In this document: positions 40,561 to 63,713 of the stretch, in pieces | How positions within the stretch are numbered: position 1 is the stretch's first letter | How the letters are laid out: every line of letters starts with the position of its first letter | Assembly (NCBI GenBank): GCA_021324675.1 | Contig: JAJPIR010000278.1 | Location: forward strand, 62,001-126,000 | Reading direction: 5' to 3' | From: Actinomycetota bacterium | GTDB taxonomy: Bacteria; Actinomycetota; Actinomycetes; Mycobacteriales; Pseudonocardiaceae | Length of the DNA stretch: 64,000 nt | The notes under the pieces: model-generated | Databases searched by the model: none | What the model was told of the DNA's origin: nothing | What the model saw: the letters and a program-made list of their open reading frames with translations, nothing else | Made by a program: the position numbers and the translations under genes

Positions 40561-41310
40561 TCAGCATGGTCGCATGCGCAGGAAAAGGAAACCGTCTTGT
40601 TCGCAGACTGAAACCGGTCGCAGCGGGCGAGGCGCCGGTAGCGGTGGTCCGGCGAGGATCCGCCGGGCATCTCCGCCAACCAAGTGCGGCGACACGGTCA
40701 GGCAGAGCTCGTCGATGAGATCGGCTGCCGCGAGCTGCGCGTTCAGCGTGGGACCGCCTTCGGCGAGGACTGCTCGGTAGCCTCGGATCCCCAGTTCGGA
40801 CAGGACCCTGCGCAGGTCGACGTCACGCTCGCCGGCCACGATGACGCCGGCCACCCGGCTGGCCCGCTCCCGGCGGTCAAGCGGGGCGTCGGCAACGGTG
40901 AACACCAGTGGGGTCGTGGGGGCATCGGCGAATAGTGGTGAATCGAGGTCGAGCCGGCACGAGCGCGTCACGATGGCCAGCGGTACCGCTGATGGGCCGT
41001 AGCGCTCGGCGCGGACGGTGCCGGCAGCGACCAGGACCACATCGGCTTGTGCGCGGAGCACCCGGAACAGCTCGTGATCCGCGTCGCCGCCGAGAGCGCC
41101 GGAACGGCCCGCTACCGCGGTCGCCCCGTCGATGCTCGCGATCATGTTGAGCCGGACCGAGGGACGGTCGCTGGTCAGCGGGAGATCGGCGTAGACGCTG
41201 GCGGGATCCACCGGGTCTACGAACTGCGGCAGCAGCTGGCGCATCCTGCTCGCCTGGTCCCCGGGTGGCCGGGCGACGTCCACGGCCGAGCTGATCCGAT
41301 CTGCGGTCAT
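40561..41310 (-). CDS. RibD C-terminal/dihydrofolate-reductase-like protein
   Basis: This 249-residue protein has the pyrimidine reductase fold: RLNMIASIDGATAVAGRSG, VVLVAAGTVRAERYGP and a C-terminal LAEGGPTLNAQLAAADLIDELCLTVSP, split across strands. It binds NADPH in that family and may reduce a pterin or pyrimidine-like substrate. Its start overlaps the preceding gene's stop by ATGA. No other riboflavin genes are nearby. Confidence 0.85.
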   Translation of the reverse strand: MTADRISSAVDVARPPGDQASRMRQLLPQFVDPVDPASVYADLPLTSDRPSVRLNMIASIDGATAVAGRSGALGGDADHELFRVLRAQADVVLVAAGTVRAERYGPSAVPLAIVTRSCRLDLDSPLFADAPTTPLVFTVADAPLDRRERASRVAGVIVAGERDVDLRRVLSELGIRGYRAVLAEGGPTLNAQLAAADLIDELCLTVSPHLVGGDARRILAGPPLPAPRPLRPVSVCEQDGFLFLRMRPC

Positions 41311-41990
41311 GATGACGTTGCCGTCCGCTCGCGGCCCTCGACGAAGAATGCGACCAGGTCGGCAACGGTCGGCACCTCGCTGGCGAGGCGTGCCGCGCCG
41401 AACGGCCGGTTGAAAAATGTGTCCAGCTCGCGGCTGGGCCGCTCCCACGGCCCGACATAGGCGTATGGCTCAGAGATCGCCGCGTCACCCGGCGAGACTC
41501 CGTAGTTGACCTGGTCCGCAGTGACGCCCAGGTCGAAATGTTCGGGCCACAGCCGGGGCGCCGACTCCGGGGCGAACTCGGATAGCGCCTGGGCGCCGAG
41601 ATCGAACCATCCTGCAAGCCTCGCCGCCGAATCGGGATCGATGCGCAGCAGCTCATCTGGCTGGCACGGCGTGGCCGGCGGGTAAACACCTGGCGGCAGC
41701 CCCGGCTCGATGCCTACCGCCGCTGCGGCCTCGTTCAGGGTGCGGGGCGTTGACCGGGTTTGCCGCCCGTTGCGGGTCACCACCAGTTCGGCACCGTCCA
41801 TCGCCAGCTCCACTGGCGGGGAGCCGAAGCGTGGCGTGCCGAAACCGCCCGGAGCCGGGCGCAGCCAGATATGCCCATCCACCGCGTAGCGGGCCGGGGC
41901 GAGAACATGTTCAGCGAGCTGGTGCCACGCCTTTCTGGTGCTGAGCAACTGATCGGTCGCCCGTGATGCGCTCGTGCCGCTGGTGTTCAT
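41307..41990 (-). CDS. conserved hypothetical protein
   Basis: This 227-residue protein has strong composition but no family I can name. Notable segments are GHIWLRPAPGGFGTPRFG, LWPEHFDLGVTADQVNYG and YAYVGPWERP. It is the first gene of a three-gene unit with the reductase-like and E1-like genes. AGGAG lies four bases before the ATG at 41990. Confidence 0.7.
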   Translation of the reverse strand: MNTSGTSASRATDQLLSTRKAWHQLAEHVLAPARYAVDGHIWLRPAPGGFGTPRFGSPPVELAMDGAELVVTRNGRQTRSTPRTLNEAAAAVGIEPGLPPGVYPPATPCQPDELLRIDPDSAARLAGWFDLGAQALSEFAPESAPRLWPEHFDLGVTADQVNYGVSPGDAAISEPYAYVGPWERPSRELDTFFNRPFGAARLASEVPTVADLVAFFVEGRERTATSS

Positions 41991-42151: not shown

Positions 42152-43402
42152 CTACGAGGTCTTTTCCGGGACGGTCCCCGTAGCTGCCGCCTCGGTAGCT
42201 GCGGCCCCGGTGGGTCCCACTACGGCAGGTGGGTCCTGGGCGGGTGCCCCGCGCAGCAACCCCAGCGCGATGGCCGGGAAGAACAGCACCGAGACCAGCC
42301 CGGCGGCGACCAGCGCGGCGCCAGTCGCGGGCGCCAGCGCGTGCAGCCGTTCGCCAATGGCCACCGAGGCGACGATGAACGGCAACGAGGTGGCTTGCAG
42401 GAACGCCGCCGCGATGGTCTGGCGGGTGCCTAGCCGGGTCCGGTAGAGCACGGCCGGAACCCCGCGCACCAGCAGCAGCGCGAGCAGGAATAGCGGCACT
42501 TGCACGACGGTCGACGCCGAGGCGAACAGTGCACCGGCGTCGAATCGCACCCCGCTGGTCACGAAGAACACCGGGACGACGAACCCGTAGCCGATGGCGT
42601 CCAGCTTGGCCTGGGTCAGCGGGTGGCTCATGGCCGCGTCCCGGTCGACCAGCCGCAGCACCGCACCGGCCAGGAACGCGCCCAGGATAGCCTCGAATCC
42701 CAGCCCCTGGGCCAGCGCCACGAACGCGACCAGCAGCAGGACCGCGAACCGGATGCGGATCTGCGCGGTGGTGTCGGCCAGCATGGTGAACACGCTCATC
42801 ACCCGGGGCGCCGCGCGCATCATCGCGAGCACCACCAGCGCCGCGACCACAGCGAGCCCCACCAGTAATCCGATCTTGGTGCCGACCCCCGAGCTGGATT
42901 CGGAGAAAAACAGCGACAGCAGGATCACCGAACCGAAGTCGGCGATCGACGCTGCCGCCACGATGAGCTGGCCGGTGTCCCCGGCGATCTGCCCTGCATC
43001 CTTGAGCACCGGCACGACCAGGCCCAGCGACGTCGCGCACAGCACGATCGCGACCAGCAGCGGCGCCCGGGTGTAGCCGCCGGCGGCCAGGCCGAACCCG
43101 GCGCCCACGGCGATCACGAAGGACGCGACGAAGCCCGCCAGCGCCAGCCGCAACGGGCGGCCGCGCAGCCGGTGCACGTCAATCTCCAGGCCAGCCAGGA
43201 ACAGCAGGAACGCCAACCCGATCAAGGCGAGTACCTCGACCGGCGCATCGACCACGACGACACCCAGCACCGAAGGCCCGAGCACGATCCCGGCGACGAT
43301 CTCCAGCACCGGCGAGGGCATCCGCACCACCGGGATCGCGCGCACTACCAGCGGGGCACCGAACGCCACCGCGCTGACGACCAACAAATTGAGAAACGAC
43401 AT
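42152..43402 (-). CDS. CPA2-family cation/proton antiporter
   Basis: This 416-residue membrane protein has about twelve hydrophobic segments. Family features are the N-terminal LEIVAGIVLGPSVLG, LFLAGLEIDVHRLRG, and the ion-site-like AASIADFGSVILLSLFF. It exchanges K+ or Na+ for protons in related systems. No soluble nucleotide-binding (TrkA-N) domain is attached, unlike KefB/KefC. It may serve pH or salt homeostasis. Confidence 0.9.
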   Translation of the reverse strand: MSFLNLLVVSAVAFGAPLVVRAIPVVRMPSPVLEIVAGIVLGPSVLGVVVVDAPVEVLALIGLAFLLFLAGLEIDVHRLRGRPLRLALAGFVASFVIAVGAGFGLAAGGYTRAPLLVAIVLCATSLGLVVPVLKDAGQIAGDTGQLIVAAASIADFGSVILLSLFFSESSSGVGTKIGLLVGLAVVAALVVLAMMRAAPRVMSVFTMLADTTAQIRIRFAVLLLVAFVALAQGLGFEAILGAFLAGAVLRLVDRDAAMSHPLTQAKLDAIGYGFVVPVFFVTSGVRFDAGALFASASTVVQVPLFLLALLLVRGVPAVLYRTRLGTRQTIAAAFLQATSLPFIVASVAIGERLHALAPATGAALVAAGLVSVLFFPAIALGLLRGAPAQDPPAVVGPTGAAATEAAATGTVPEKTS

Positions 43403-43534
43403 GGCTTGCCTCTACCGCTCATGCTTTCCAGGGCTGGCGTTACGCCCGCTCGCGGCCCTGCGCAGGCCGCTCCGAGCGGGTTGGCTCGTCGTCGGATCCA
43501 TCACGACCTCCCGGTCAGCGTGCACCGGCCGCCG

Positions 43535-45112
43535 TCATACCAGCGCTGCGGCCGTCGGCCGGTGGGCACCGAGGCGCTCGGCGAGGTGATCGGCCACCCG
43601 CAGCGCGTTCGCGATGATCGTCAGCGTGGGGTTGACCGCCGAGCTGGACACGAAGAAGCTGGCGTCTGCCACGTAGAGGTTGTCCAGGTCGTGCATCCGG
43701 CAGTTGATGTCCAGCGCCGAGGTGGCCGGATCCGTACCGAAACGGATGGTGCCGTTCTGGTGCGCCACCCCAGCGATGCCCAGCCGACCGCCGCGGTAGC
43801 TGTAGTTCTCCAGCACGTCACGCGCGCAGCGCATGGCCTCCAGCAACCCGATGAACCGCTCGCGTAGGACGGCGTGCGCGGCCAGGTTGGTGGGCCGGTA
43901 GCGCAGGGAGATCTCGCCCGCGCGATCGATCATGACCTGGTTGTCGCGCATCGGTAAATCTTCGGTGGTCAGCCAGAAGTCCATCGCATGGCGGGCCAGC
44001 GCTTGCGGATCCTCGGCTTCGGGCGCGTCGAAGGAGATCAGCACGGCGTCGGACTTGCCCAGCATCTGGATCGCGCCCAGCGGGTAGGGGTAATGCCCGA
44101 CCGGGTCGCCGAAGTAGAAGTCATTGACTCCAAGCGTCTTCTGAAACCGGGTCGGGTTGGGCACCGTGGAAAACGCGATCAGTGAGCTGTTGTTGTGCAT
44201 CATCAGGTTGCGCCCCACCACCCCGGAGGAGTTGCCCAATCCCTGCGGGTGGCGCGGTGACGCCGAACGCAGCAGCAGCGCGGCGCTGTTGATCGCGCCG
44301 GCGGCGAGCACCACGAGATCGGCCGAGTACTCCTCCCGGGCACCGTCGCGCTGAACCACCACGCGCTCGACCGAGCCTCCGGACGGTCTGGTCTCCAGCC
44401 GGGTGACCCGGGCACCGGTCAGCAAGGTGACGTTGGGATTGCGCATCGCGGGCTCCACGCACACCGTCTGGGCGTCGGCCTTGCCATTGACCAGGCAGGG
44501 AAACCCGTCGCACGTGGCGCAGCGCACGCACGCCGACCGGTGCGGTACCGCCTCGTCGAGCAGGATGCCGTTGGGCAGCTCGAACGGATGCATCCCGGCG
44601 GCGTCCAGGTCCGCCCGCAGTTGCTCGATACGAGGTTCGTGACTGATCGGTGGGTGCGGGTACGGCGTGTCCGACGGCGCGTCGGTCGGGTCTACCCCGC
44701 GTACCCCGTGTACCTGGTAGAGCTGCTCGGCTGCCGTGTACCACGGTTCGAGATCCGCATACGAGATCGGCCACGCTGGTGACACTCCATCGACGTGCTC
44801 GACCACGCCGAAGTCGCGCTCGCGCATCCGGAACAGGATCGCGCCGTACACCTTGGTGTTGCCACCCACGTAGTAGTGCTGCTTGGGGGTGAACCGCTGG
44901 CCGGTGTCCAGATCCGTCCACTGCCCGGAGTTGCGGTAGCGACCCTCCCGCCACACCGCCGCCGGGCTCCAGTTCTCCGGCTCCCTCGGCAAGAACCCAC
45001 CGCGTTCCAGCAGCAGGATGCGCTTGCCGGTCGCGGCGAGGGCGTAGGTGACCGTGCCGCCCCCCGCGCCGGAGCCGATCACGATGACGTCGTAGTGGTC
45101 GGTCATGGACAT
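43535..45112 (-). CDS. GMC-family FAD oxidoreductase
   Basis: The 525-residue enzyme has the FAD motif VIVIGSGAGGGTVTYALA, GGNTKVYGAILFRMRE, and a C-terminal block DLDNLYVADASFFVSSSAVNP, split here, which carries active-site residues of glucose-methanol-choline oxidoreductases. A cysteine cluster CVRCATCDGFPC may bind a metal or cofactor. The substrate is probably an alcohol or sugar. ATG 45112 or 45106 is the likely start; the frame is open much further. It is divergent from the short ORF and the GH15 gene. Confidence 0.88.
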   Translation of the reverse strand: MSMTDHYDVIVIGSGAGGGTVTYALAATGKRILLLERGGFLPREPENWSPAAVWREGRYRNSGQWTDLDTGQRFTPKQHYYVGGNTKVYGAILFRMRERDFGVVEHVDGVSPAWPISYADLEPWYTAAEQLYQVHGVRGVDPTDAPSDTPYPHPPISHEPRIEQLRADLDAAGMHPFELPNGILLDEAVPHRSACVRCATCDGFPCLVNGKADAQTVCVEPAMRNPNVTLLTGARVTRLETRPSGGSVERVVVQRDGAREEYSADLVVLAAGAINSAALLLRSASPRHPQGLGNSSGVVGRNLMMHNNSSLIAFSTVPNPTRFQKTLGVNDFYFGDPVGHYPYPLGAIQMLGKSDAVLISFDAPEAEDPQALARHAMDFWLTTEDLPMRDNQVMIDRAGEISLRYRPTNLAAHAVLRERFIGLLEAMRCARDVLENYSYRGGRLGIAGVAHQNGTIRFGTDPATSALDINCRMHDLDNLYVADASFFVSSSAVNPTLTIIANALRVADHLAERLGAHRPTAAALV

Positions 45113-45226
45113 CTCAGACCGCACCGGGAGCCGGGCGTTACAGGCGATGCCACCGATGGCGGCCCGAGCCGCCCTGGGAGACGATGCACAAGGCGTAACG
45201 CCGACGGTGAACCGGGAGGTCCGCTG

Positions 45227-45440: not shown

Positions 45441-47272
45441 ATGCCGAGCATCCCGATTGCGGACTACGCGCTGCTGTCTGACCGGCACACGGCAGCGTTG
45501 GTGAGCCGGGCGGGCTCGGTCGACTGGTTCTGCGTTCCCCGCTTCGACTCGCCGTCGGTGTTCGCCCGGCTGCTCGACGACGATGCAGGGCACTTCTCGG
45601 TGCGTCCGGTTGAGGTGCCGGCCGGTAGCAGCCGCCGCTATCTGGACGGCACGATGGTGCTCGAGACGACCTGGGTGACCAGCACCGGCACTCTGGTTGT
45701 GCGCGACGCGCTGGCCACCGGGGCTTCCGGCAGTCCGCACGGACTGGGCTCGCGGGCGCCCCGGCTGCTGGTCCGGTCGCTGGAATGCCCTTCAGGTTCG
45801 GTCGCCGTGGCCGTCGAGTTCACCCCGCGCCCGGAATACGGGCTGGTGGAGCCCCTGCTGCAGGCGGTACCTGGTGGGGTCACGGCGCGCGGCGGTGCGG
45901 ATGTGCTGGCGCTGAGCTGCCCGGTGGCGCTGGTCATCGGCCCGCGTTCGGCCACCGGCACGCTGACCCTGCGCACCGGGCAGCGGATCACTCTCGGGCT
46001 GCGGCACCGCACCACGTCCGAGCCGTACCCCGAGCCGTCCGGTGCCGGGGAGCTGGAGGAGGCACTGGCGACGACTGTGCAAGCTTGGCAGGGCTGGTCC
46101 CGGCAACACCAGAGCTACCGGGGCCCGTGGCGCGGCCTGGTGCACCACAGCGGCCGGGTGTTGCAGGCGCTGTCCTACCAGCCGACCGGGGCGGTGGTGG
46201 CCGCCGTGACGACGTCGCTGCCCGAGAAGGTCGGTGGCGGGCGCAACTGGGACTACCGCTACTCGTGGGTGCGCGACGCGTCCTTCACCCTCGAGGCGCT
46301 GTGGGTTGCCGCCTGCCCTGATGAGGCACACCAGTTCTTCGACTACCTGGCAGCCAGCTCGGCCGGCCAGGTACAGGGCGGTCGCAACCTGCAGATCATG
46401 TTCGGTGTCGGTGGTGAGCACGACCTGACCGAGCGCGAGCTCGAGCACCTGTCCGGCTGGCGGGACAGCCGCCCGGTCCGGGTGGGCAACGGGGCGTGGA
46501 AGCAACGTCAGATCGACGTCTACGGCGAGCTGCTCGGCTCGGCGCACCGGCTCGTCGAGCAGTTGAACCCAGACCATCCCGGCGCGGGCCCGTGGCGCGA
46601 GTTCCTCACCGCCTGTGCGGACACCGCGGCCCACCGCTGGCGTGAAGCTGACCAGAGCATCTGGGAAATGCGCGGGGAACCCCGCCACTTCCTGTACTCG
46701 AAGCTGATGTGCTGGGTCGCCCTCGACCGCGCCATCGCGATGGCCGGCACGCTGCGCGCCCAGGACCGGGTGGCGAAATGGCGCAGGGCCGCCGGCGAGA
46801 TTCGTGACGAGATCCTCACCCATGGTTGGAGCGACGCCGCCAAGTCGTTCATCCAGTCCTTCGGATCCACTGACCTCGACGCGTCGAATCTGATGATCCC
46901 CATCGTCGGGTTCCTCCCTGCCACCGATTCCAGGGTGCTGGCGACCATCGATCCGTCGCCGAGCGGCTCACCGACTCCCGGGGCCTGGTCTACCGCTACC
47001 GCACCGGAGCCGGCGACAACGCCGACGGATTGACCGGGCAGGAAGGCACGTTCCTGCTCTGCACATTCTGGCTAGCTCAGGCGCTGGCGGTGTCCGGCCA
47101 GGTCGGGCGCGCCCGCACGGTGTTCGAGCGGGCCGCGCAGTACGCCAACGACGTGGGACTGCTGTCCGAGGAGGTGGACCCGGATTCCGGTGATCTGCTC
47201 GGCAACTTCCCGCAGGCGTTTAGCCACATGGGTCTGGTCAACGCGGCCTGGGCGATCGCGCAGGCGCAATGA
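45441..47272 (+). pseudogene. GH15-family glucoamylase/trehalase-like enzyme, one frameshift
   Basis: The N-terminal frame matches GH15 proteins of the actinobacterial type: ADYALLSDRHTAALVSRAGSVDWFC, GGRNWDYRYSWVRDASFTLEALW with catalytic-site residues, and ASNLMIPIVGFLP. At about 46951 the frame is lost (ATCGATCCGTCGCC). Adding one base there would read IDAVAERLTDSRGLVYRYRTGAG and continue to the normal C-terminus (GQEGTFLLCTFWLAQAL) at 47272. The lesion looks like a single-base deletion or sequencing error. If repaired, the enzyme would be about 610 residues and would hydrolyse alpha-linked glucosides. Confidence 0.85.
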
Positions 47273-47349: not shown

Positions 47350-49589
47350 GTGGTCCGGTCGCGGCAGGCTTGCCTGGTGACCCTCACCGGCGTCGACCGA
47401 GTGCTGCTGGAGACCAAGCTGCACCCGCCGGCCCCGCGCAGGCTGGTGCCGCGACCCGGCCTGGTCGACCGGCTGTCCCCCACCGGCCGGCGGCTGACCG
47501 TGCTCGGCGCCCCAGCTGGCTGGGGCAAGACGTGCCTGGTGGCGCAGTGGGTGGCCGCCACCAACGTGCGAGTCGCCTGGCTCGGGTTGGATCGGGGCGA
47601 CGACGACCCGGTGCTGTTCTGGACCTACGTGATCGCCGCATTGCGCACCCGGTTACCGGGGATCGGCGAGGCGGCGCTTGCCGCGATGGGCGCGGGATGG
47701 CGGGCCCTGCGCGAGGCCGCCATCCCATCGCTGCTCAACGACCTGCTGGCAGAGCCGGACCCGATCGTGCTGGTCCTGGACGACTACCACGTGGTCAGCA
47801 ACCCGCAGGTGCACGCGACACTGGCCCTGCTGCTGGAGCGGATGCTGCCGGCACTGCACCTGGTGGTCTGTTCGCGCGGCGAGACCCCATTGCCAGTCGG
47901 CCGGCTGCGTGCCGAAGGGGAGCTGCTCGAGCTGCGCGCCGAGGAGCTGGCCCTCGACATTGCCGAGGTCGCGCGGGCGCTCGACGGAATCCCGGGGGTC
48001 ACGCTGTCCGAAGCCGATGTCGCCCGGTTGCGGCGGCGGACCGAGGGGTGGCCGGCCGGGGTGTCGCTGGCCCGCGCCTCGCTCGCCGCCCGCCCGGCCG
48101 CCGCGGCGTCGTTCGTTGACGCGTTCACCGGCACCGACCGGTACGTGCTGGAGTATCTCGGCAACGAGGTGCTCACCGGGCTGCCGGAAGACCAGCGGAC
48201 ATTCCTGCTGCACACCTCGATCCTGAGCAAGTTGTCGCCGCCGCTGTGCTCCGCGGTGACCGGCCGCCCGGATGCTGCGGCCATGCTCGACCGCCTGGAA
48301 CGCGGTGGGCTTTTCGTCACGGCCACCGACTCGGCCCGGCAGTGGTTCCACTACCACCGGTTGTTCGGCGAGCTGCTGCAACACGAGCTGACGCTCGCCG
48401 CGCCCACGCTGATGCCTGAACTGCACCGCCGCGCCGCCGCGTGGTGGTCGGACTACGGCGACCTCACCCAGGCCGTCGAACACCAGCTCGCCAGCGGGCA
48501 CACCGACCAGGCCGCCGAGACGGTTGCCGAGCACTGGAACGAGTGGTTCAACCGGGGGTTGCTGGGCACCGTCAGCGGCTGGCTCGATCGGCTTCCCGCC
48601 GCCCGGATCCGGGCGGATCACCGGCTGTGCGCGGCGCGGGCCTGGCTCATGCTCGACCACGGTGACCTGGACGCCGCCGGTCCCTGGATCGCCGCCATCG
48701 AGACCGCTGTCGATCCGCAGGACATAGCCGCCCTGCGTGATCTGGCCGTGCTACGCAGTGTGCACCGCTTCAAGATCGGTGACCTGGGAGCGTCCCGGAC
48801 CGCTGCGCACCGCGTACTGGAACTGGGCGGCGATGAGGTCGGCTTCGCCGCCACCGTGGCGCACTTGATCAGCGGGATCACCGCGCACTGGAGCGGGCAA
48901 CGCGAGGCGGCCCGCCGCCCACTCGCCCAAGCCGTCCGGCTGGCCAGGCGCACCGCCAATCCCCTGGCCGAGACCTACGCCCTGGGCTACCTCGCGTTGA
49001 ACACGATCGATGCCGGCGCGCTGGACGACGCGGCTCGCGCCGTGCCGGTCGCCTTGGAGGCCACGGCCAACCCCGGGGTGGCCGAACACTTCGTGGCCGC
49101 CTTTCCGCACCTCGCCCGCGCCAGCCTGATGGCGGCCTGCGGCCGACCACGGCCGGCCGCGGACGCGGCAGCCCGGGCGCTGGCGCTGGCGCGGCGCGGG
49201 GCAGGGCGGCTCGAGGTTGCCATCGTGCTGGGCATGCGCGCGCAGACCGCGGCAGCACTCGGCGCGACGGGCAGCAGTGGCTCGACCAGGCCCGCTCGCT
49301 CGCACGGTCCTGCCCCGATCCCGGCTTGGTGCCTACCCGGCTGTCCCGGATGCGGATCCCGGGCCACTCGCCAGCCCCGGTCCCGGCAGGCACCTGCGCA
49401 CCACTGAGCGCCCGGGAACGGGAACTGCTGCCGCTGCTCGCCGGCTCGCTGTCCCAGCGGGAGATCGGGGCGGCGCTGCATCTTTCACTCAACACCGTGA
49501 AATCCCACACCCGCGTCCTGTTCCGCAAGCTGGGCGTGTCCTCGCGAGCCGAAGCCGTCGACCGGGCCCGTGAGCTCGGGCTGCTCTAG
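47350..49589 (+). pseudogene. MalT-like LuxR regulator, one frameshift
   Basis: The first 640 residues carry a P-loop ATPase (GAPAGWGKTC, Walker B IVLVLDDYH) and helical repeats as in MalT/LAL regulators. Near 49264 (GGCGCGACGGGC) the frame is lost. One extra base would give DGQQWLDQARSLARSCPDPGL and continue into a complete LuxR helix-turn-helix (LSARERELL, GSLSQREIGAALHLSLNTVKSH) ending at 49589. GTG 47377 is a possible start. It follows the GH15 gene by 77 bases, fitting a maltose-type control of sugar use. Confidence 0.85.
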
Positions 49590-50216
49590 CCCATGACTGT
49601 AGGGCTCCAGCAGCTCGCGCAGCTTGCAGCGGGCCCGGTGCAGCAACACCCGCTGGTTGCTGGTCGACAGCAGCAGCAGCTCACGTACCTCACCGGAGGT
49701 CCAGCCCTCGACATCGCGCAGCACGACGACGGCGTGTTGCCGCTCGGGCAATTCCTCCAGAGCCGAGCTCAACGCCGACCACATCTCACCGGCTAGGGCG
49801 TGCTGCTCGGGGCTCATCGGGTCGGTTCGCGCCCGGGTGCCCGCCGCGGCGTCCCAGATCGGTGCCTCACCGGGCAAGGATGACCAGCACACGGTCCGTG
49901 ACTCACGAAGCCGGCGGGTCCGCGCGATGTTCACCAGGATCCGCATCAGCCAGGTCTTGAACAGCGAGCGCCCTTCAAAGCCGTCTATGTGTCTGAGCAC
50001 GGCAAGCCACGTGTCCTGCACGACATCTTCGGCGACGTCGCCGGCAAGGTAGCCGCGGGCCACCCGCAGCATCAGCGGGGTGTAGCGGCGCACCAGGGTC
50101 AAGTACGCTGCCTCGTCCCGGCCGCGCAGCCCGGCGACGAGCTCGGCATCAGAGTCGGCATCGGGGTAGTCCGGCGTGACGGCGACCGGCGGGCGGTTGA
50201 GGGTGAGGGTCGGCAT
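49485..50216 (-). CDS. ECF sigma-70 factor
   Basis: This protein of about 243 residues has region 2 (AAYLTLVRRYTPLMLRVARG, DVVQDTWLAVLRHI, FKTWLMRILVNIARTRRLR) and region 4 (LPERQHAVVVLRDVEGWTSGEV, STSNQRVLLHRARCKLRE). The C-terminal 35 residues overlap the opposing LuxR domain by 105 bp, an unusually long convergent overlap, and may be non-native. The start at 50216 has GGGAGG upstream. No anti-sigma gene is adjacent. Confidence 0.88.
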   Translation of the reverse strand: MPTLTLNRPPVAVTPDYPDADSDAELVAGLRGRDEAAYLTLVRRYTPLMLRVARGYLAGDVAEDVVQDTWLAVLRHIDGFEGRSLFKTWLMRILVNIARTRRLRESRTVCWSSLPGEAPIWDAAAGTRARTDPMSPEQHALAGEMWSALSSALEELPERQHAVVVLRDVEGWTSGEVRELLLLSTSNQRVLLHRARCKLRELLEPYSHGLEQPELTGPVDGFGSRGHAQLAEQDAGVGFHGVE

Positions 50217-50401
50217 GCGCTCCTCCCGGATAAGTCCCCGGATATCAAGGCACTCATCACCCTGCGCGAATCTGCGCCGGGAAGTACGCGATGCGCAGGG
50301 GCTCACCCGGGTGAAACACCGGGGTGAGCCGGTGCGTAACGCCAGGCCACCCCGCCGGTCGGTACCGGGGACAGCACAGCGACCGACGGAGGGAACCCGG
50401 C

Positions 50402-50905
50402 ATGACCGCGCAGCTGATCAGCATCCCGTACCACCTGCCGAACGGTGGTGGCCCAGCGTTGTGGCACTTGGGAGCTCTACTCACCATCAAGGCCACCGCA
50501 AGCCAGACCGGCGGGCGGCTCTGGGCCAAGGAGCTGCTCGCCGAGCGGGGGATGGCCACCCCGGTGCACCGCCACAGCCGGGAAGATGAGGTGTTTTACG
50601 TGCTCGAAGGCGAGATCAGCGTGCACGTCGGCGAGGAGGTCCTGCAGGCGCGGGAGGGTGACTTCGTGTGGGCCCCGCGCGATGTCGGGCACGCGCTCTG
50701 CGTGGAGTCGGCGCTGGCGCGGGTGTTGGTGTTGTCCACCCCGGCCGGGTTCGAGCAGTTCTTCTTCGACACCGGCCAGCCCGCCACCGAGCTCATCGTG
50801 CCACCCACCGATACCCCGGCATCCGACGCTGATTCGCTGGTCAGCGCGCTGGCCGGCTACGGGGTTGAGGTGTTGGGGCCGCCGCCACGCCCGACCACAG
50901 CCTGA
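50402..50905 (+). CDS. cupin-domain protein
   Basis: This 167-residue protein has cupin motif 1 (TPVHRHSREDEVFYVLEGE) and motif 2 (GDFVWAPRDVGHAL), giving likely metal ligands His, His, Glu and His. It may be a small dioxygenase or isomerase or a regulator. GGAGGG lies before the ATG. It starts a co-oriented cluster with the Rieske-ThDP gene. Confidence 0.88.
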   Translation: MTAQLISIPYHLPNGGGPALWHLGALLTIKATASQTGGRLWAKELLAERGMATPVHRHSREDEVFYVLEGEISVHVGEEVLQAREGDFVWAPRDVGHALCVESALARVLVLSTPAGFEQFFFDTGQPATELIVPPTDTPASDADSLVSALAGYGVEVLGPPPRPTTA

Positions 50906-51059
50906 TGGCTCGGCGCCGCCACGGTGGCCGTGTAACGCCGGCGGTTCTCGCGTCACTAAGAGATGACCGGGCACCTGGTCAATCAGTCCCGGCGGCTCTG
51001 ACGACTTTAACGACTTTAACGGCTTAACGGCTTTTGCGTCCGGGGTAAGGAGGCGCTCC

Positions 51060-52991
51060 ATGTCCGTGAACCAGTGGCACCGGGTCGACCCAGCCGACAT
51101 CCCTGACGAGGGTCGGGTGCGCACCGTTGTCGTCGACGGCCACGCCGTTGCGTTGACTCGCTGCGCTGGACAGCTAGGCGCCCTGGACAACCGGTGCCCG
51201 CACCAGGGCGGCCCGCTCGGTGAGGGATCGATCGAGAAAGGATGGCTGCGCTGCCCGTGGCATGGCTATGACTACCACCCGACGACGGGCCGGCCACCGG
51301 AAGGCTTCTCCGACGGGGTAGCGACGTACCCGGTGGACCAGCGCACCGATGGCGTCTATATCCAGCTGCCGGAACTGACCTCGCCACCGCGCACGGTGGC
51401 TGATGCCATGGTCGAGACGCTCGTGGCCTGGGGTGTGCGGACTGTGTTCGGGATGGTCGGCCATTCGAACCTGGGATTCGCCGACGCGCTGCGGCGGGCC
51501 GAACAACGCGGTGACATCACCTTTGTCGGTATCCGTCACGAGGGCGCGGCGGCATTCGCGGCCAGCGCCTACGGCAAGCTGACCGGCCGACCCGCTGCGT
51601 GCTTTGCCATCGCCGGGCCTGGATCGACAAACCTGCTCACCGGGCTGTACGACGCCAAGCTCGATGGTGCGCCGGTAGTGGCGATCTCCGGCCAGGTGCC
51701 GTCGAAGGTGCTCGGCCGGGGCGCCTTCCAGGACTTGAAACTGTCCACCGTGTTCGGCGACGTCGCAGTGTCCAGCACCACCGTCACCGCTGGCAGCGAT
51801 CATGCTGAGCTCGCCGCGCTGGCCGTCAAACACGCCATAGACGGTCGCGGCGTCGCCCATCTCGTGCTACCCGACGAGGTACAAGCCCAGCCAAGCACCG
51901 CGCCCCCGCGCCTGCCAGACGGGCGCGCCGCATGCCACCGGATCCTGCCGGCACCCAGCGAGTTGACCGCCGCCGCCACCCTGGTCCGTGATGCCCGACG
52001 CCCGGTGCTGATCGCGGGCCACGGCGCACGGCAGGCAGCCGAGGACGTGCGGAAGCTCGCCGAGCGGCTCAACGCCCCGGTACTGACCACCTTCAAAGCC
52101 AAAGGACTCATCCCCGACACCCACCCCCTGGGGGCCGGCGTGCTCGGCCGCAGCGGCACCCCGGTAGCCAGCTGGCTGATGAACGAATCCGACCTTCTGA
52201 TCGTGGTCGGCGCGTCGTTCGCCAACCACACCGGGATCGCGCCGTACAAACCAATCCTGCAGATCGACGACGATGTCTCCGCAGTCGGCCGCTTCGACCC
52301 GGTGACCCTGGCCCTGCTCGGTGACGCCCGCCTGACCGTATCCGCACTGGCTGAGATGCTGGGCGAGGTCAAGGCCGAGGACCAGCGACCCGACGTCGCG
52401 ACCCGCTGGAGGATCTGGCGCGCGGAAAAGGCCCGCCGGGTACGCGACGACCGGGGCCACGGCGTCGGTGCGGCGGCGGTGTTCGATGCGCTGTCACGGC
52501 ACCTACCGACAGATGCGGTGCTGACGGTGGACGTCGGCAACCACGCCTACTCCCTGGGCCGTTACCTGGAGTCGCAAGGCCAGCCGGTACTGATGTCGGG
52601 GTATCTGGGCTCGATCGGTTTCGGGTATCCCGCCGCTCTCGGCGCCTGGGCGGCCGCACCGGGCCGGCCGATCGTCGCGGTGACCGGGGACGGCGGTTTC
52701 GGGCAGTACGCCATGGAGCTGACCACGGCAGTGAAGTACCGCATGGGCATCAAGCACGTGCTGCTCAACAACAACGCGCTGGGCAAGATCAGCAAGGAAC
52801 AGCTGGCCGAGGAGTACCCCGTCTGGCAGACCGACTTGCGCAATCCCGACTGGGCCCGCTACGCCGAGCTGTGCGGCGCGACCGGGATCCGAGTCGACGC
52901 CAGCGACCAGCTCGACGACGCGATGAGCGCGCTTTTCGCCGCAGACGGACCGGTCCTGCTGTGCGTCGAGCAGGACGTCGCGCTGCTCTAG
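51060..52991 (+). CDS. Rieske ferredoxin fused to a ThDP-dependent enzyme
   Basis: The 643-residue product begins with a Rieske domain of about 100 residues (CPHQGGPLGEG and CPWHGYDYH supply two Cys and two His). A complete ThDP enzyme of the acetolactate synthase/pyruvate oxidase family follows: GIRHEGAAAFAASAYG with the catalytic Glu, IAGPGSTNLLTGLYDA, and the cofactor motif GDGGFGQYAMELTTAV ending in LNNNALGK. Fusion of the two is unusual; the cluster could draw electrons from the oxidised ThDP intermediate. Cupin and flavodoxin-like genes flank it on the same strand. The substrate is not known. Confidence 0.88.
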   Translation: MSVNQWHRVDPADIPDEGRVRTVVVDGHAVALTRCAGQLGALDNRCPHQGGPLGEGSIEKGWLRCPWHGYDYHPTTGRPPEGFSDGVATYPVDQRTDGVYIQLPELTSPPRTVADAMVETLVAWGVRTVFGMVGHSNLGFADALRRAEQRGDITFVGIRHEGAAAFAASAYGKLTGRPAACFAIAGPGSTNLLTGLYDAKLDGAPVVAISGQVPSKVLGRGAFQDLKLSTVFGDVAVSSTTVTAGSDHAELAALAVKHAIDGRGVAHLVLPDEVQAQPSTAPPRLPDGRAACHRILPAPSELTAAATLVRDARRPVLIAGHGARQAAEDVRKLAERLNAPVLTTFKAKGLIPDTHPLGAGVLGRSGTPVASWLMNESDLLIVVGASFANHTGIAPYKPILQIDDDVSAVGRFDPVTLALLGDARLTVSALAEMLGEVKAEDQRPDVATRWRIWRAEKARRVRDDRGHGVGAAAVFDALSRHLPTDAVLTVDVGNHAYSLGRYLESQGQPVLMSGYLGSIGFGYPAALGAWAAAPGRPIVAVTGDGGFGQYAMELTTAVKYRMGIKHVLLNNNALGKISKEQLAEEYPVWQTDLRNPDWARYAELCGATGIRVDASDQLDDAMSALFAADGPVLLCVEQDVALL

Positions 52992-53036: not shown

Positions 53037-53753
53037 ATGTCCAGCATGGAAAAACGCTATGACGACCTGCGCGCCATGTTCATCAACTGCACCCTCAAAC
53101 GCTCCCCCGAAATCAGCAACACCCAGGGCCTGATCGACCTCAGCCGCACCATCATGGAGAAGAACGGCGTGCAGGTGGACGTGATCCGTGCGGTTGATCA
53201 CGACATCGCCACCGGCGTGTGGCCGGATATGACCCGACACGGGTGGGCCAGCGACGAGTGGCCAGCGCTGTACCCGCGAGTGCTGGGCAGCGACATCCTG
53301 GTCATCGCCGGCCCCATCTGGCTGGGCGACAACAGCTCGGTCACCAAGCGGGTGATCGAGCGGCTCTACGGCTGCTCGCACCTGCTCAACGAAGCCGGCC
53401 AGTACGCCTACTACGGGCGGGTAGGGGGCTGCCTGATCACCGGCAACGAGGACGGCGTGAAGCACTGCGCGATGAACGTGCTGTACAGCTTGCAACACCT
53501 GGGCTACACCATCCCGCCGCAAGCCGACGCAGGCTGGATCGGCGAAGCCGGCCCCGGCCCGTCCTACCTGGATCCTGGTTCCGGGGGCCCGGAGAATGAC
53601 TTCACCAATCGCAACACCACGTTCATGACCTGGAACCTGATGCATCTGGCCCGGATGCTGCGCGACGCAGGAGGAATCCCCCCGCACGGCAACCAGCGTT
53701 CAGAATGGGACGCCGGCTGCCGCTTCGATTTCGCCAATCCCGAACACCGCTGA
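53037..53753 (+). CDS. flavodoxin-like NAD(P)H-dependent oxidoreductase
   Basis: This 238-residue protein has the FMN-binding layout of the NADPH-dependent FMN reductase/flavodoxin family: FINCTLKRSPEISNTQGL, the loop AGPIWLGDNSSVTKRVIERLYG split over the helix, and GCLITGNEDG. It starts 45 bases after the Rieske-ThDP gene and may pass electrons to or from it. AAGGAG lies before the ATG at 53037. Confidence 0.87.
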   Translation: MSSMEKRYDDLRAMFINCTLKRSPEISNTQGLIDLSRTIMEKNGVQVDVIRAVDHDIATGVWPDMTRHGWASDEWPALYPRVLGSDILVIAGPIWLGDNSSVTKRVIERLYGCSHLLNEAGQYAYYGRVGGCLITGNEDGVKHCAMNVLYSLQHLGYTIPPQADAGWIGEAGPGPSYLDPGSGGPENDFTNRNTTFMTWNLMHLARMLRDAGGIPPHGNQRSEWDAGCRFDFANPEHR

Positions 53754-53869: not shown

Positions 53870-54292
53870 TTAACAGCTGGCCAAGCGACGTGCCGTGTCC
53901 CTGATCACCTCGATCAGGCAACGCTGGGCCGCTGCACTCATGTCCGTGACCACCACGTGCAGCCGACGAGCAGTCTGCAGGTCAATCTTGCCCAACATGG
54001 TGACCGCGCTGGCCGTCACGGTGAGCATGATCCGTCGTCGGTCAGCGGGATCTGGCCTGCGGCAGACCAGCCCAGCGCGAGCCAGCCGATCAACCATTGC
54101 GGACGTCGCGGGCGGTCGCAGACCCAAAGCGTGTGACAAGGCCATCAGGGTCATCGGAGCCTTGGCGCTGATGAAATGTAGTGCCAGCAACTGTGCCAAG
54201 GTGAGCTCGCTGTCCGCCCAATTAGCGGGACGCCTTGACACCATCTTGCGCAGGTGTTCCGCAAGCCAGCGGGCATCCTCGACCGCAACCAT
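53870..54292 (-). CDS. MarR-family regulator
   Basis: This 140-residue protein has the winged helix pattern TLMALSHALGLRPPATSAMVDRLARAGLV (split) and the wing RRPDPADRRRIMLTVT. It faces the flavodoxin-like gene convergently and may regulate nearby redox genes; its ligand is unknown. Confidence 0.9.
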   Translation of the reverse strand: MVAVEDARWLAEHLRKMVSRRPANWADSELTLAQLLALHFISAKAPMTLMALSHALGLRPPATSAMVDRLARAGLVCRRPDPADRRRIMLTVTASAVTMLGKIDLQTARRLHVVVTDMSAAAQRCLIEVIRDTARRLASC

Positions 54293-60686: not shown

Positions 60687-61100
60687 TCATCGCGCGTGCG
60701 CCTGGTGGCCCCGCACCACGCGCAGCTTGATCCTGATGTCGGTAGTTTCGGTCGTGATCCAGCCGGCTGTTCCGTGCGCCTGCCGGCGTACCCGGACGAT
60801 GGTCTCGCCGTCGCCGACTTCGCCGGTAGCGATCACCAGCGCGTCTGGGCCGACGCCGAAGGCATGCTCAGCCTGCACGACGGCCTGCGCAACAATCCGG
60901 GCCACCGGGGCGCAGACGGTCCCGGGGGCGAACCGCAACGCCCACAGCGCCTGGGTGGCGGTCATACCCTGCACGCGGGCCAGGACGCGGCGGGCCTCGG
61001 CCTTGCTGAGCCGGGCTTGGCTGTTGTGCCCGATCACCGTCGTCTCGGGCGACCTGGTGGCCTCATCGGGCACATCACCGTCGGTGCGCAGTGTCCTCAC
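60687..61100 (-). CDS. divergent ribosomal protein uL22-like protein in a monooxygenase operon
   Basis: The 137-residue product aligns by eye with bacterial L22 over about 100 residues: KAEARRVLARVQGMTA, ALRFAPGTVCAPVARIV, AQAVVQAEHAFGVGPDALVIAT, and RVRRQAHGTAGWITTETTDI. The strongly basic tail and the TSHITVVV strand of true L22 are changed (TTDIRIKLRVV), and no other ribosomal genes are near. The GTG start overlaps the reductase stop as GTGA, so it is translated with the monooxygenase genes. It may be a repurposed RNA-binding or assembly protein; the role is unknown. Confidence 0.75.
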   Translation of the reverse strand: MRTLRTDGDVPDEATRSPETTVIGHNSQARLSKAEARRVLARVQGMTATQALWALRFAPGTVCAPVARIVAQAVVQAEHAFGVGPDALVIATGEVGDGETIVRVRRQAHGTAGWITTETTDIRIKLRVVRGHQAHAR

Positions 61101-62332
61101 CTCATGACCGCTCGGGCCAGGCGTCGCAGGTCGACGGACTCGTCGCGCAGGGTCGCGGCGCTGACCCGCACCCCGGATGCGATCAGCTTGCGAGCCGCGA
61201 TGATGTCGCGGCCGCGGTTGAGCGCGACCACGGCACGGACGCGGCCGTCGGCGAGGAGGAACCGGGCGAACGATCGCTCGGCGATCGATCCGCGCACCAC
61301 CACCTCGTCGCACCCCTCGCCGAATCCCATCGACTGCAGGCTGTGCTCGTACTGATCGGACCAGAACCAGTGCGGATCGTCGTAGGCGACGTCCTCGCCG
61401 AGCATGTTCCTGGCCGCCACCGCGCCATGCTTGATCGCGTTGTCGTGGTGCTCGACGCGCAGGTGACGCCTGTACAGCGGGTGAAAGTGCGCCGCGACAT
61501 CGCCTGCGGCGTAGATGCCGGCAACGGCTGTGCGGCAATGCTCATCGACGACGATGCCGTTGTGGCACTTCACCGAGGTACCGGCGACGATTTCGGTGTT
61601 CGGCAGCATCCCGACCGCAACCAGGAGCAACCCGCACTCCAGCCGGCTGCGACCGGTGGTCACCACCAGCCCGTCCGCCGTCTCGGACACCGATTGCACC
61701 TGCTCTCCGGTACGGAAGTCGACGCCGGCATCCCGGTGGATCTCGGCCAGCTGGCTGCCGACCTGCGCACCCAGTGCCCGCTCGAGCGGGACCTGTGCCA
61801 TCTCGAGCACGGTCACCTCGGCACCGAGCCGGCGCGCCGAGGCAGCGACCTCGCACCCGATGAACCCGCCGCCGAGCACCACCAGCGGCTCGCCCTGCCG
61901 CAAGCGTTCGGCCAGCCAGTCGGCGTCAGCCCGGGTGCGCAGGTAGGCCACCCGCTCGCCACCTACCGATCCCTGGAGGCTCTCGAACGGTCGCGGCCGT
62001 CCCCCGGTGGCCAGCAGCAGCGCGTCGTAACCCAGCCGCTCGCCTCCCGCCAGCTGGACCACCCGCTCGCGGTCGTCGATCCCCTCAGCGCGCTCACCGA
62101 GCCGCAGCTCGACCTCCTGCTCGGCGTACCAGCTCGCGGGCCGCACCGGTAGCTGAGCGCCGTCGAGGTGGCCGGTCAGGTACTCCTTGGACAGTGGTGG
62201 CCGCTCATACGGCACCGCAGGCTCGCTCGCGACGACGACCAGCCGGCCGTCGAAGCCGGCTGATCGCAGGGTCGCCGCGGCGGAGGCGGCGCACGGACCT
62301 CCACCGACGATGACGAACACCGGTGGGGTCAC
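61097..62332 (-). CDS. ferredoxin reductase (rubredoxin/putidaredoxin reductase type)
   Basis: This 411-residue flavoprotein has an FAD motif VIVGGGPCAASAA, VPYERPPLSKEYL, an NADH motif VVLGGGFIGCEVAASA and a C-terminal IYAAGDVA. It should pass electrons from NAD(P)H to the Rieske ferredoxin encoded just upstream. Related toluene and isoprene monooxygenases use a different reductase type with a built-in plant-like ferredoxin domain. GTG 62332 overlaps the ferredoxin stop by GTGA. Confidence 0.9.
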   Translation of the reverse strand: MTPPVFVIVGGGPCAASAAATLRSAGFDGRLVVVASEPAVPYERPPLSKEYLTGHLDGAQLPVRPASWYAEQEVELRLGERAEGIDDRERVVQLAGGERLGYDALLLATGGRPRPFESLQGSVGGERVAYLRTRADADWLAERLRQGEPLVVLGGGFIGCEVAASARRLGAEVTVLEMAQVPLERALGAQVGSQLAEIHRDAGVDFRTGEQVQSVSETADGLVVTTGRSRLECGLLLVAVGMLPNTEIVAGTSVKCHNGIVVDEHCRTAVAGIYAAGDVAAHFHPLYRRHLRVEHHDNAIKHGAVAARNMLGEDVAYDDPHWFWSDQYEHSLQSMGFGEGCDEVVVRGSIAERSFARFLLADGRVRAVVALNRGRDIIAARKLIASGVRVSAATLRDESVDLRRLARAVMR

Positions 62333-62655
62333 GGCACCGCCACGCAGATCATCCCGTCCTCGTCCACCTTCACGGGGAAGGAACGCAACGCGCAATCGTC
62401 CGGGTTGACGCCCTTGCCAGTGAGGGCATCGAACACCCAGTGATGGTTCGCGCAGGTCAGTTCCCGGCCGTCGAGATCACCTTGATCCAGCGGCCATGCC
62501 TGGTGTGGGCAGCGATTCTCGTAGGCGCGGATCTGGCCGTCGACGTTGACCAGCAAGATCTTCGCCGTACCGACCTGCACCCCGGTCAAGTCGCCCTCCC
62601 ACAGCTCGTCGAGCTCCATGACCGGGGTCCACACCCATTGCCGGGCTTCGGCCAT
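62329..62655 (-). CDS. Rieske ferredoxin of a diiron monooxygenase
   Basis: This 108-residue protein has CPHQAWPLDQGDLDGRELTC, split, and CANHHWVFD, giving the two Cys and two His of a [2Fe-2S] Rieske centre. The layout is like TmoC of toluene monooxygenase. It starts two bases after the beta-subunit stop. Confidence 0.92.
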   Translation of the reverse strand: MAEARQWVWTPVMELDELWEGDLTGVQVGTAKILLVNVDGQIRAYENRCPHQAWPLDQGDLDGRELTCANHHWVFDALTGKGVNPDDCALRSFPVKVDEDGMICVAVP

Positions 62656-62657
62656 GA

Positions 62658-63713
62658 TCAGCTCGCTGCGGCGGCATCGGCCGAGGCGAGGCCGGGTGAG
62701 GCTTCGGCGAGCAACCGTTCGCGGGCGGCCGCAGCCGCTGCGGCTACCTCCGAGGCCGCCAGGTCCCGCAGGGAATAGTTCTCCAGCACCGAGCCCAGCC
62801 CCGCAGCCGACTCGTCGGCCAGCGGCGACCACTTGTCGATCCACTTCCGCAGCACGCCGGCGTTTCCCGGTCGTTGCGCGACCACGAAGCGCGCGAGTTC
62901 CCCGCTCCACCTCTCCCGCCGTTGCGCGTCGCGTCGCAGGAACGAGGTCAGCAGCCAGGTGAGGTCATCGCCACTGTCCCTGGCGACCTCCCCGAGCTGG
63001 CGGAGCAGCACGTCGTCCAGCGACGGCAGCAGCACGAGGTTCATCGCGGTGAACGCTTCGCCCCAGTCGTAAGCGGTCAGTGCCAGCTCGATGGCACGCC
63101 TGGTCGGTTGCCAGGCCTCGTCCAACTCCCAGATGGCTCGCTCGCCGGCGGCGAAGCCGTCGTCCGGCCAGGCCAGCTGCAGTTCCCGGGTGCGGTAGGA
63201 CACCAGCGTCACCCGGCGCAGCATGTCGGCGGCGGACAACGCTGCGGGGTTGGTGATGTAGGGCGACGGTGCCATCAAGCCGATGTAGGCCTGCACCTGC
63301 TGGGCACCGTGCAGTGGGTACCGCGTCGTGGTGAACAGCCGGGCCAACGTCGCCCGCCACTCGGGCGCCAGCTGGGCGTCGGCGTTCGCGGCGGCGTACT
63401 GCTCGAGTACCCCGCCGACCTGCGTCTCCTGCTCGTGCTGCTGGGTCACGTAGGCCCGGTAGCTGAGCATGTCCGGGTCACGGAAGCTTTCCCAGTCGTC
63501 GACCTGCAGCGGGGAGTCATCCCGGTAGGTCCGCATCCACAGGTTGGCCGGCGACGACGGGTTCTGCTCGAACGGGGCTTTCCGGCCCTCGCGCAGGGTG
63601 TAGTTCATGCCCTGCGTGCCGATCTCGTAATCGGACGGGCGGCGCTTGATGTCGCCGAAGGCACTCCACGTGCGCAAGCGGCGCTTGGCTGGCTGATCGG
63701 TTGTCGCTGACAT
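62658..63713 (-). CDS. diiron monooxygenase hydroxylase beta subunit (TmoE-like)
   Basis: The 351-residue protein resembles beta subunits of soluble diiron monooxygenases: RLRTWSAFGDIKRRPSDYEIG, LNYTLREG-like MNYTLREGRKAPFE, SPLQVDDWESFRDPDMLSYRAYV, and later LDEAWQPTRRAIELALTAYDWGEAFTAMNLVL. Beta subunits have the ferritin-like fold but no diiron ligands, as here. The ATG at 63713 has GGGAG six bases upstream. The alpha and gamma subunits are probably beyond the right edge. Confidence 0.88.
   Translation of the reverse strand: MSATTDQPAKRRLRTWSAFGDIKRRPSDYEIGTQGMNYTLREGRKAPFEQNPSSPANLWMRTYRDDSPLQVDDWESFRDPDMLSYRAYVTQQHEQETQVGGVLEQYAAANADAQLAPEWRATLARLFTTTRYPLHGAQQVQAYIGLMAPSPYITNPAALSAADMLRRVTLVSYRTRELQLAWPDDGFAAGERAIWELDEAWQPTRRAIELALTAYDWGEAFTAMNLVLLPSLDDVLLRQLGEVARDSGDDLTWLLTSFLRRDAQRRERWSGELARFVVAQRPGNAGVLRKWIDKWSPLADESAAGLGSVLENYSLRDLAASEVAAAAAAARERLLAEASPGLASADAAAAS

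Follow-up and report, generated by a model that had tools for sequence, protein, structure and literature searches.

The window, by which we mean the whole 64,000-nucleotide stretch of actinobacterial DNA analyzed here, encodes a protein in which a Rieske iron-sulfur module precedes a thiamine diphosphate (ThDP)-dependent enzyme. The locus raises two questions: is this fusion genuine, and does its cluster lie on the path of electrons leaving the ThDP site? The first-pass annotation described a Rieske domain fused to a complete ThDP enzyme, with the reading frame uninterrupted across the junction near residue 105, and both statements were borne out. The sequence aaggagg (51047-51053) stands directly 5' of the start codon, and no stop interrupts the 643-aa open reading frame (ORF; Table 1). 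Four Pfam domains were called above their gathering scores, namely Rieske (PF00355; residues 10-79, E 1.5e-14), TPP_enzyme_N (PF02776; 112-225, E 1.3e-35), TPP_enzyme_M (PF00205; 303-430, E 3.4e-34) and TPP_enzyme_C (PF02775; 491-634, E 4.4e-32), placing the Rieske module at residues 1-105, the ThDP enzyme at 111-643 and the junction at about residues 105-111. In an alignment of 53 rows, comprising the window protein and 52 of the 80 related loci introduced below, C46, H48, C65 and H68, which make up the C-x-H and C-x2-H ligand pairs of a Rieske center, are identical throughout, as are E161, H135, G543, D544, N571 and K576, with G545 retained in 52 rows. The C-terminal part has the catalytic Glu, the GDG...N motif and the three domains of the ThDP superfamily with the POX/AHAS fold. 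An AlphaFold2 model of the monomer without cofactors, with the 53-row alignment as input, reached a mean pLDDT of 90.2 and a pTM of 0.88; among the PDB matches listed, no chain spans both the Rieske and the ThDP parts. The protein is a ferredoxin-type Rieske module with intact ligands, joined to a pyruvate-oxidase-fold ThDP enzyme in which the catalytic Glu and the cofactor motif are intact.

Table 1. Features of the Rieske-ThDP locus in the window (coordinates count from the first letter of the window)
Feature	Position	Strand	Basis and remarks
hyp209, 227-aa uncharacterized protein	41307..41990	-	Family conserved beside the fusion
Na+/H+ exchanger-family antiporter	42152..43402	-	tblastn with neighbors of other loci; Pfam on the L029 homologue; motif at 43436-43443 upstream
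ECF sigma factor	49485..50216	-	Sigma70_r2/r4; family beside the fusion in 23/82 loci, window included
Cupin	50402..50905	+	Cupin_2; GTAACGCC about 60 nt 5' (50336-50343); tied to the fusion by the motif alone
GTAACGCC motif 5' of the fusion	50932..50939	+	Putative ECF-sigma promoter element
Rieske-ThDP fusion protein	51060..52991	+	643 aa, ATG start, no internal stop
Rieske [2Fe-2S] module	51060..51374	+	Pfam PF00355; ligands C46 (51195), H48 (51201), C65 (51252), H68 (51261)
ThDP enzyme module (PYR, middle, PP domains)	51390..52988	+	Pfam and structural match to PoxB
Key residues of the ThDP module	E161 (51540), H135 (51462), GDGG...N571 (52686-52772), K576 (52785)	+	Alignment
Flavodoxin-like FMN_red protein	53037..53753	+	Pfam PF03358; 45 nt 3' of the fusion; candidate electron partner in this lineage

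To judge the spread of the fusion, we compared the best 80 of 404 relatives found in genomes of named species, a set ranked on whole-protein similarity and hence biased toward fusions. All 80 match from residue 1-7 to residue 639-643 at 57-85% identity, and the match lies within a single ORF in every locus except L070, where it is interrupted near residue 443. As labelled, these relatives come from Actinomycetota, Acidobacteriota, Calditrichota, KSB1, Gemmatimonadota and Bacteroidota, the members outside Actinomycetota all being metagenome bins. The fusion is also borne on plasmids of Mycobacteroides abscessus (68%) and four haloarchaea (about 54%), where it is annotated merely as 'thiamine pyrophosphate-binding protein', the haloarchaeal genes measuring 1983-1989 nt. 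A draw of 396 genomes from the window's phylum was less biased and, at E <= 1e-110 with only three candidates scored per genome, returned 20 loci: 12 full-length Rieske-ThDP proteins in 11 genomes, 5 proteins of a rubredoxin type and 3 plain ThDP enzymes. In a phylogenetic tree, the 60 Rieske-ThDP rows form a single group with an SH-aLRT support of 100, with the caution that long branches join at its base. The first-pass annotation would have been overturned by relatives in which the two parts are separate genes, pointing to an assembly error; instead, the relatives are unsplit and the fusion recurs in archaea. That an assembly or gene-calling artifact joined two genes is vanishingly improbable: nothing was found in its favor, both parts are matched in all 80 loci, which derive from other assemblies, and the lengths of the annotated archaeal plasmid genes also speak against it. 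The fusion is real and old, and is conserved in bacteria and archaea.

The plasmid loci contain further features of note. The proteins of the M. abscessus plasmid and of Mycobacterium sp. ST-F2 (L108 and L057, respectively) have identical ThDP parts, which suggests spread of the fusion via plasmids. All four haloarchaeal plasmid loci (L109, L110, L111 and L112) carry annotated genes of the merA or dihydrolipoyl dehydrogenase type, with TauE/SafE sulfite exporter genes annotated in L109, L111 and L112 and DsrE-family genes in L110 and L111.

The ThDP module has its best structural match in E. coli PoxB (3eya_D; Z 43.0, 513 residues aligned, rmsd 2.5, 30% identity), which aligns structurally over residues 110-642 and in sequence over residues 111-636 of the fusion. 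PoxB (3eya/3ey9), Lactiplantibacillus plantarum POX and Corynebacterium glutamicum PQO (9ev6) share the fold and the domain order of residues 111-643; the catalytic Glu and the ThDP motif are common to POX, PQO and the fusion, and the middle domain aligns with both POX and AHAS. Compared with the pyruvate oxidases, the fusion has an extra Rieske module at the N-terminus, and its chain stops at the PP domain, whereas PoxB (572 aa) continues. The 3ey9 alignment halts at PoxB residue 525, 7 residues short of the end of the query, so that the C-terminal extension of PoxB past the PP domain, a membrane peptide, is absent from the fusion. Phe465 of PoxB, which sits near ThDP and FAD, has no counterpart in the fusion, where K576 is aligned with it, and H135 is aligned with PoxB Asp27; both positions differ again in the rubredoxin-ThDP forms. 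Because H135 and K576 replace PoxB residues and are both invariant, the enzyme may carry out a reaction other than pyruvate oxidation. Pyruvate serves only as a default guess at the substrate, which could be another compound and need not be common to the Rieske and rubredoxin forms. Scores against curated families fall far under the respective cut-offs (393.5 vs 742 bits for pyruvate oxidase NF006377, 291.7 vs 637.85 bits for pyruvate oxidase TIGR02720 and 294.4 vs 538.35 bits for acetolactate synthase TIGR00118), and the protein thus has the pyruvate-oxidase fold without qualifying for the curated pyruvate oxidase or acetolactate synthase families. The original label of 'acetolactate-synthase/pyruvate-oxidase-like' accordingly stands at the level of the fold and fails under the curated family cut-offs.

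In known ThDP enzymes of the pyruvate-oxidase fold, FAD takes up the electrons and hands them on to oxygen or quinone; the ThDP enzymes known to use iron-sulfur outlets are the unrelated 2-oxo acid:ferredoxin oxidoreductases. In pyruvate:ferredoxin oxidoreductases, iron-sulfur clusters oxidize the ThDP intermediate, a concept shared with the fusion; however, these enzymes constitute a different protein family, and none of their Pfam domains was matched in the fusion.

The Rieske module itself is closest, among PDB chains, to the ferredoxins of dioxygenase systems (5bok and 2qpz nearest; T4moC is of the same kind), which are free-standing, whereas the Rieske module of the fusion is joined to a ThDP enzyme. 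Examination of relatives showed that the N-terminal position can be filled differently. In the 396-genome draw, the five rubredoxin-type relatives match the window protein from residues 46-60, and a CxxC...CPxC module replaces the Rieske module. Pfam called Rubredoxin in the two proteins scanned (L125, E 6.9e-10; L129, E 7.2e-5, barely above the cut-off), and C6, C9, C31 and C34 are invariant in all five. The ThDP parts of these proteins are 37-39% identical to that of the window enzyme (three compared), and in the tree all five fall together with the Rieske forms (SH-aLRT 100). When the ThDP part was used on its own to search 82 Calditrichota-group genomes, 13 loci were recovered. Three of these (L185, L177 and L178) encode CDGSH-Fer4_19-CDGSH-Rieske-ThDP as a single ORF of 869-885 aa, four encode the Rieske form of 650 aa (L175 and L176 from their sequences, the others apparently so from frame length), and six were set aside as ordinary acetolactate-synthase-like enzymes, judging by their N-termini. 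The long CDGSH-Fer4_19-CDGSH-Rieske N-terminus also occurs in L120 and L121, two loci that share the phylum of the window but come from another class. Next to the rubredoxin-ThDP genes of L128 and L129, CDGSH-Fer4_19-CDGSH is encoded by a separate, divergent gene, and this is the same block that is fused to the enzyme in Calditrichota. From these sequences, we infer that the N-terminal position takes exchangeable one-electron outlets, either Rieske or rubredoxin. Beyond the transfer of single electrons, the Rieske, rubredoxin and CDGSH/[4Fe-4S] modules share little, and this is our main reason for placing the cluster on the electron path. Combinations of CDGSH with Fer4_19, Glu_synthase and Rieske_2 are described in PMC5859297, whose CDGSH proteins draw on the same module toolbox as the fusion and its partner described next; the main text of that article uses neither 'thiamine' nor 'TPP'.

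In 21 of 82 loci (the best 80 relatives, L010 and the window), we found a protein of about 540 aa combining a Rieske module with a glutamate synthase FMN domain (Rieske-GltS; Pfam run on two). Its gene lies directly upstream of the fusion on the same strand in 20 of these 21 loci, with a 4-nt overlap of the two genes in, for example, L049 and L054. The FMN domain (Pfam Glu_synthase) is shared with ferredoxin- and NADPH-dependent glutamate synthases and contains C452-x5-C458-x4-C463, invariant in 19/19, a spacing typical of [3Fe-4S] ligands. The partner differs from these enzymes in its length of about 540 aa and in carrying Rieske, rubredoxin or CDGSH at the N-terminus, and its PDB matches cover the FMN part alone (profile 216-525). 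The substitutions in the partner resemble those in the fusion: tandem CDGSH takes the place of Rieske in L100 (672-2288), and in L128 (2015-5301) and L129 (785-4071) a rubredoxin-ThDP gene overlaps a rubredoxin-GltS gene. Rieske-GltS is present on three of the four haloarchaeal fusion plasmids and absent from the M. abscessus fusion plasmid. Among the 396 genomes, full-length Rieske-GltS occurs in 7, of which 5 are among the 11 with Rieske-ThDP (Fisher p 1.2e-7, kinship ignored); the 2 genomes with Rieske-GltS and no Rieske-ThDP count against the pairing. Also against it, three of the five rubredoxin-ThDP loci had no GltS neighbor in the stretch read, and GltS-like proteins with a rubredoxin-like N-terminus (CxxC...CPMC by eye) are encoded in at least two genomes (L140, 1240-2682, and L141, 1504-2997) with no rubredoxin-ThDP match. 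A search of the window's genome found no Rieske-GltS, the best match lying in a 1526-aa frame and covering profile positions 216-492 only. We rejected a recent duplication as the origin of the Rieske modules of the two enzymes, their mean identity (BLAST) being just 32%. Gene order and co-occurrence make the Rieske-bearing glutamate-synthase-like enzyme a probable functional partner of the fusion.

The first-pass annotation took the cupin and flavodoxin-like neighbors on the same strand to suggest a small redox pathway, and these two fared differently: the flavodoxin-like gene is conserved, whereas the cupin is not conserved by sequence and shares only a promoter motif with the fusion. The FMN_red family is present in 23 of 85 loci compared (60-89% identity in the alignment). 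Across these loci, 21 contain GltS and 23 contain FMN_red, with none containing both. Extending the count to whole genomes, for 50 of the genomes from the set of 80 with the fusion, we found the iron-sulfur GltS in 24, an FMN_red orthologue in 21, both in 2 and neither in 7; this count leaves out three GltS rows without the N-terminal part (E 9e-101 to 7e-103 to 1e-103) and eight FMN_red rows with E weaker than 1e-52, and the GltS call in genomes G530, G531 and G535 rests on fragments at contig ends. The avoidance between GltS and FMN_red gave a raw Fisher p of 3e-6, but a phylogenetic pair test with 7 independent pairs gave a median p of 0.25. Mutual exclusion as a law was thus lost once phylogeny was considered, and two genomes have both. 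The distribution nevertheless suggests that FMN_red substitutes for GltS as the partner. Two window genes were rejected as conserved partners based on tblastn: the cupin, for which no other locus was positive, and a MarR gene (53870-54292), which was found in the window only.

Another conserved neighbor is hyp209: members of its family adjoin the fusion in 38 further loci, frequently with divergent transcription. Homologues of hyp209 had no match in Pfam or NCBIfam; W148, H151, D153 and an SPGD motif are invariant. The AlphaFold2 model of this protein is confident (pLDDT 95.2), but the best matches from Foldseek (E 0.099) and VIA (Z 7.7 over 97 residues) were too weak for the fold to be named. 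In the window, hyp209 adjoins a RibD/dihydrofolate-reductase-like gene (40561-41310, labelled by eye), and dihydrofolate reductase genes are annotated beside haloarchaeal Rieske-GltS in L109 (13373-13858) and L112 (15670-16152). Elsewhere in the window, on the minus strand at 61097-63713, a gene for a small Rieske protein (62329-62655) lies between a reductase-like gene and a gene for a toluene-monooxygenase-like subunit, both labelled by eye.

An ECF sigma factor and the GTAACGCC motif accompany the actinobacterial loci. The ECF sigma factor gene is usually accompanied by a gene for a 77-aa anti-sigma protein of the zinc type (about 20 loci), and the GTAACGCC octamer, on either strand, occurs within 160 nt 5' of the fusion or of GltS in 22 of the 23 loci with the ECF gene vs 1 of the 59 others (Fisher p 1e-17, kinship ignored). 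The window contains seven occurrences vs 1.2 expected, a number never reached in 100 shuffles. Apart from the sites in Table 1, the octamer is found at 45134, upstream of the oxidoreductase-like gene at 43535-45112, at 45195, upstream of the gene at 45441, and in two further places. The GTAACGCC sites 5' of five genes or operons in the window probably constitute one ECF regulon, and the actinobacterial fusion operon is probably switched on by the ECF sigma factor.

Considering these observations together, we favor, with moderate confidence, the reading that the fusion is an iron-sulfur-wired ThDP oxidoreductase in which the Rieske cluster serves as the electron outlet to a partner. The conserved Glu would activate ThDP, and the ThDP site would bind a 2-oxo acid-like substrate and decarboxylate or cleave it; the resulting ThDP-bound carbanion/enamine would be oxidized by one-electron steps, possibly via a middle-domain FAD, and the Rieske cluster would export the electrons to a partner protein. 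The acceptor would be the flavodoxin-like FMN_red protein in the window's genome; many other lineages would use the glutamate-synthase-like FMN enzyme with its Rieske module, and Calditrichota and some Actinomycetota the CDGSH/[4Fe-4S] chain fused at the N-terminus. The probable ECF control in Actinobacteria suggests that the enzyme might be induced under stress to bypass the usual oxo-acid dehydrogenases. The idea of an electron path, raised in the first-pass annotation, is strengthened by the exchange of Rieske for rubredoxin, by the CDGSH-[4Fe-4S] extension and by the pairing with Rieske-GltS. The 7 of 50 fusion genomes with neither GltS nor FMN_red count against it.

Other roles for the cluster have to be weighed against the same evidence. 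The ECF sigma factor and its zinc-type anti-sigma protein, together in about 20 loci, make redox control plausible, and the cluster might accordingly sense redox state or oxygen and turn the ThDP enzyme on and off while lying off the electron path; we consider this unlikely because a rubredoxin replacement and a CDGSH plus [4Fe-4S] extension share little beyond one-electron transfer, and because a partner enzyme carries a similar module. Electrons might instead flow inward, from FMN_red or another reductase through the Rieske cluster to a reductive or radical ThDP step such as reductive carboxylation or reductive coupling. Ferredoxin-type Rieske modules, the nearest PDB chains, classically donate electrons to oxygenases, and the FMN_red family is named after NADPH-dependent reductases, but the closest structures to the ThDP module are oxidases and oxidative dehydrogenases, and the commonest partner is GltS-like, known glutamate synthases being consumers of electrons, so that inward flow seems to us distinctly improbable. 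The case that the Rieske fold merely stabilizes the oligomer of an ordinary acetolactate-synthase-type carboligase draws on the fold and motifs held in common with acetolactate synthases; with all four Rieske ligands invariant in 53/53 rows and the slot filled in relatives by the structurally unrelated rubredoxin, a purely structural fusion is very improbable.

The reading of the cluster as an electron outlet permits a more specific proposal, which we put forward as speculative and more doubtful than likely. Rieske-ThDP and Rieske-GltS, or their rubredoxin counterparts, could form a closed two-enzyme module in which 2-oxo acid oxidation at ThDP would drive reductive amination at FMN via matched one-electron carriers, without NAD(P)H, quinone or soluble ferredoxin. 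Which carrier is used would match the oxygen exposure of the cell, and the flavodoxin-like protein would be a stand-in acceptor where GltS is lacking.

Our survey of the open-access literature, with subscription journals and preprints outside its scope, found no description of a Rieske-ThDP or rubredoxin-ThDP fusion, and passages of PMC8097209, a review of iron-sulfur flavoenzymes, mention neither. If the electron-outlet reading is true, the problem solved by the 2-oxo acid:ferredoxin oxidoreductases would have a second, separate solution in a pyruvate-oxidase fold whose outlet is built in and can be exchanged among Rieske, rubredoxin and CDGSH-[4Fe-4S] types. The fusion also directs attention to the glutamate-synthase-like enzyme with its own Rieske module as a probable functional partner. 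With conservation that extends from Actinobacteria to haloarchaea, these enzymes with interchangeable outlets would offer a natural series in which the type of carrier can be related to electron transfer from the ThDP intermediate.
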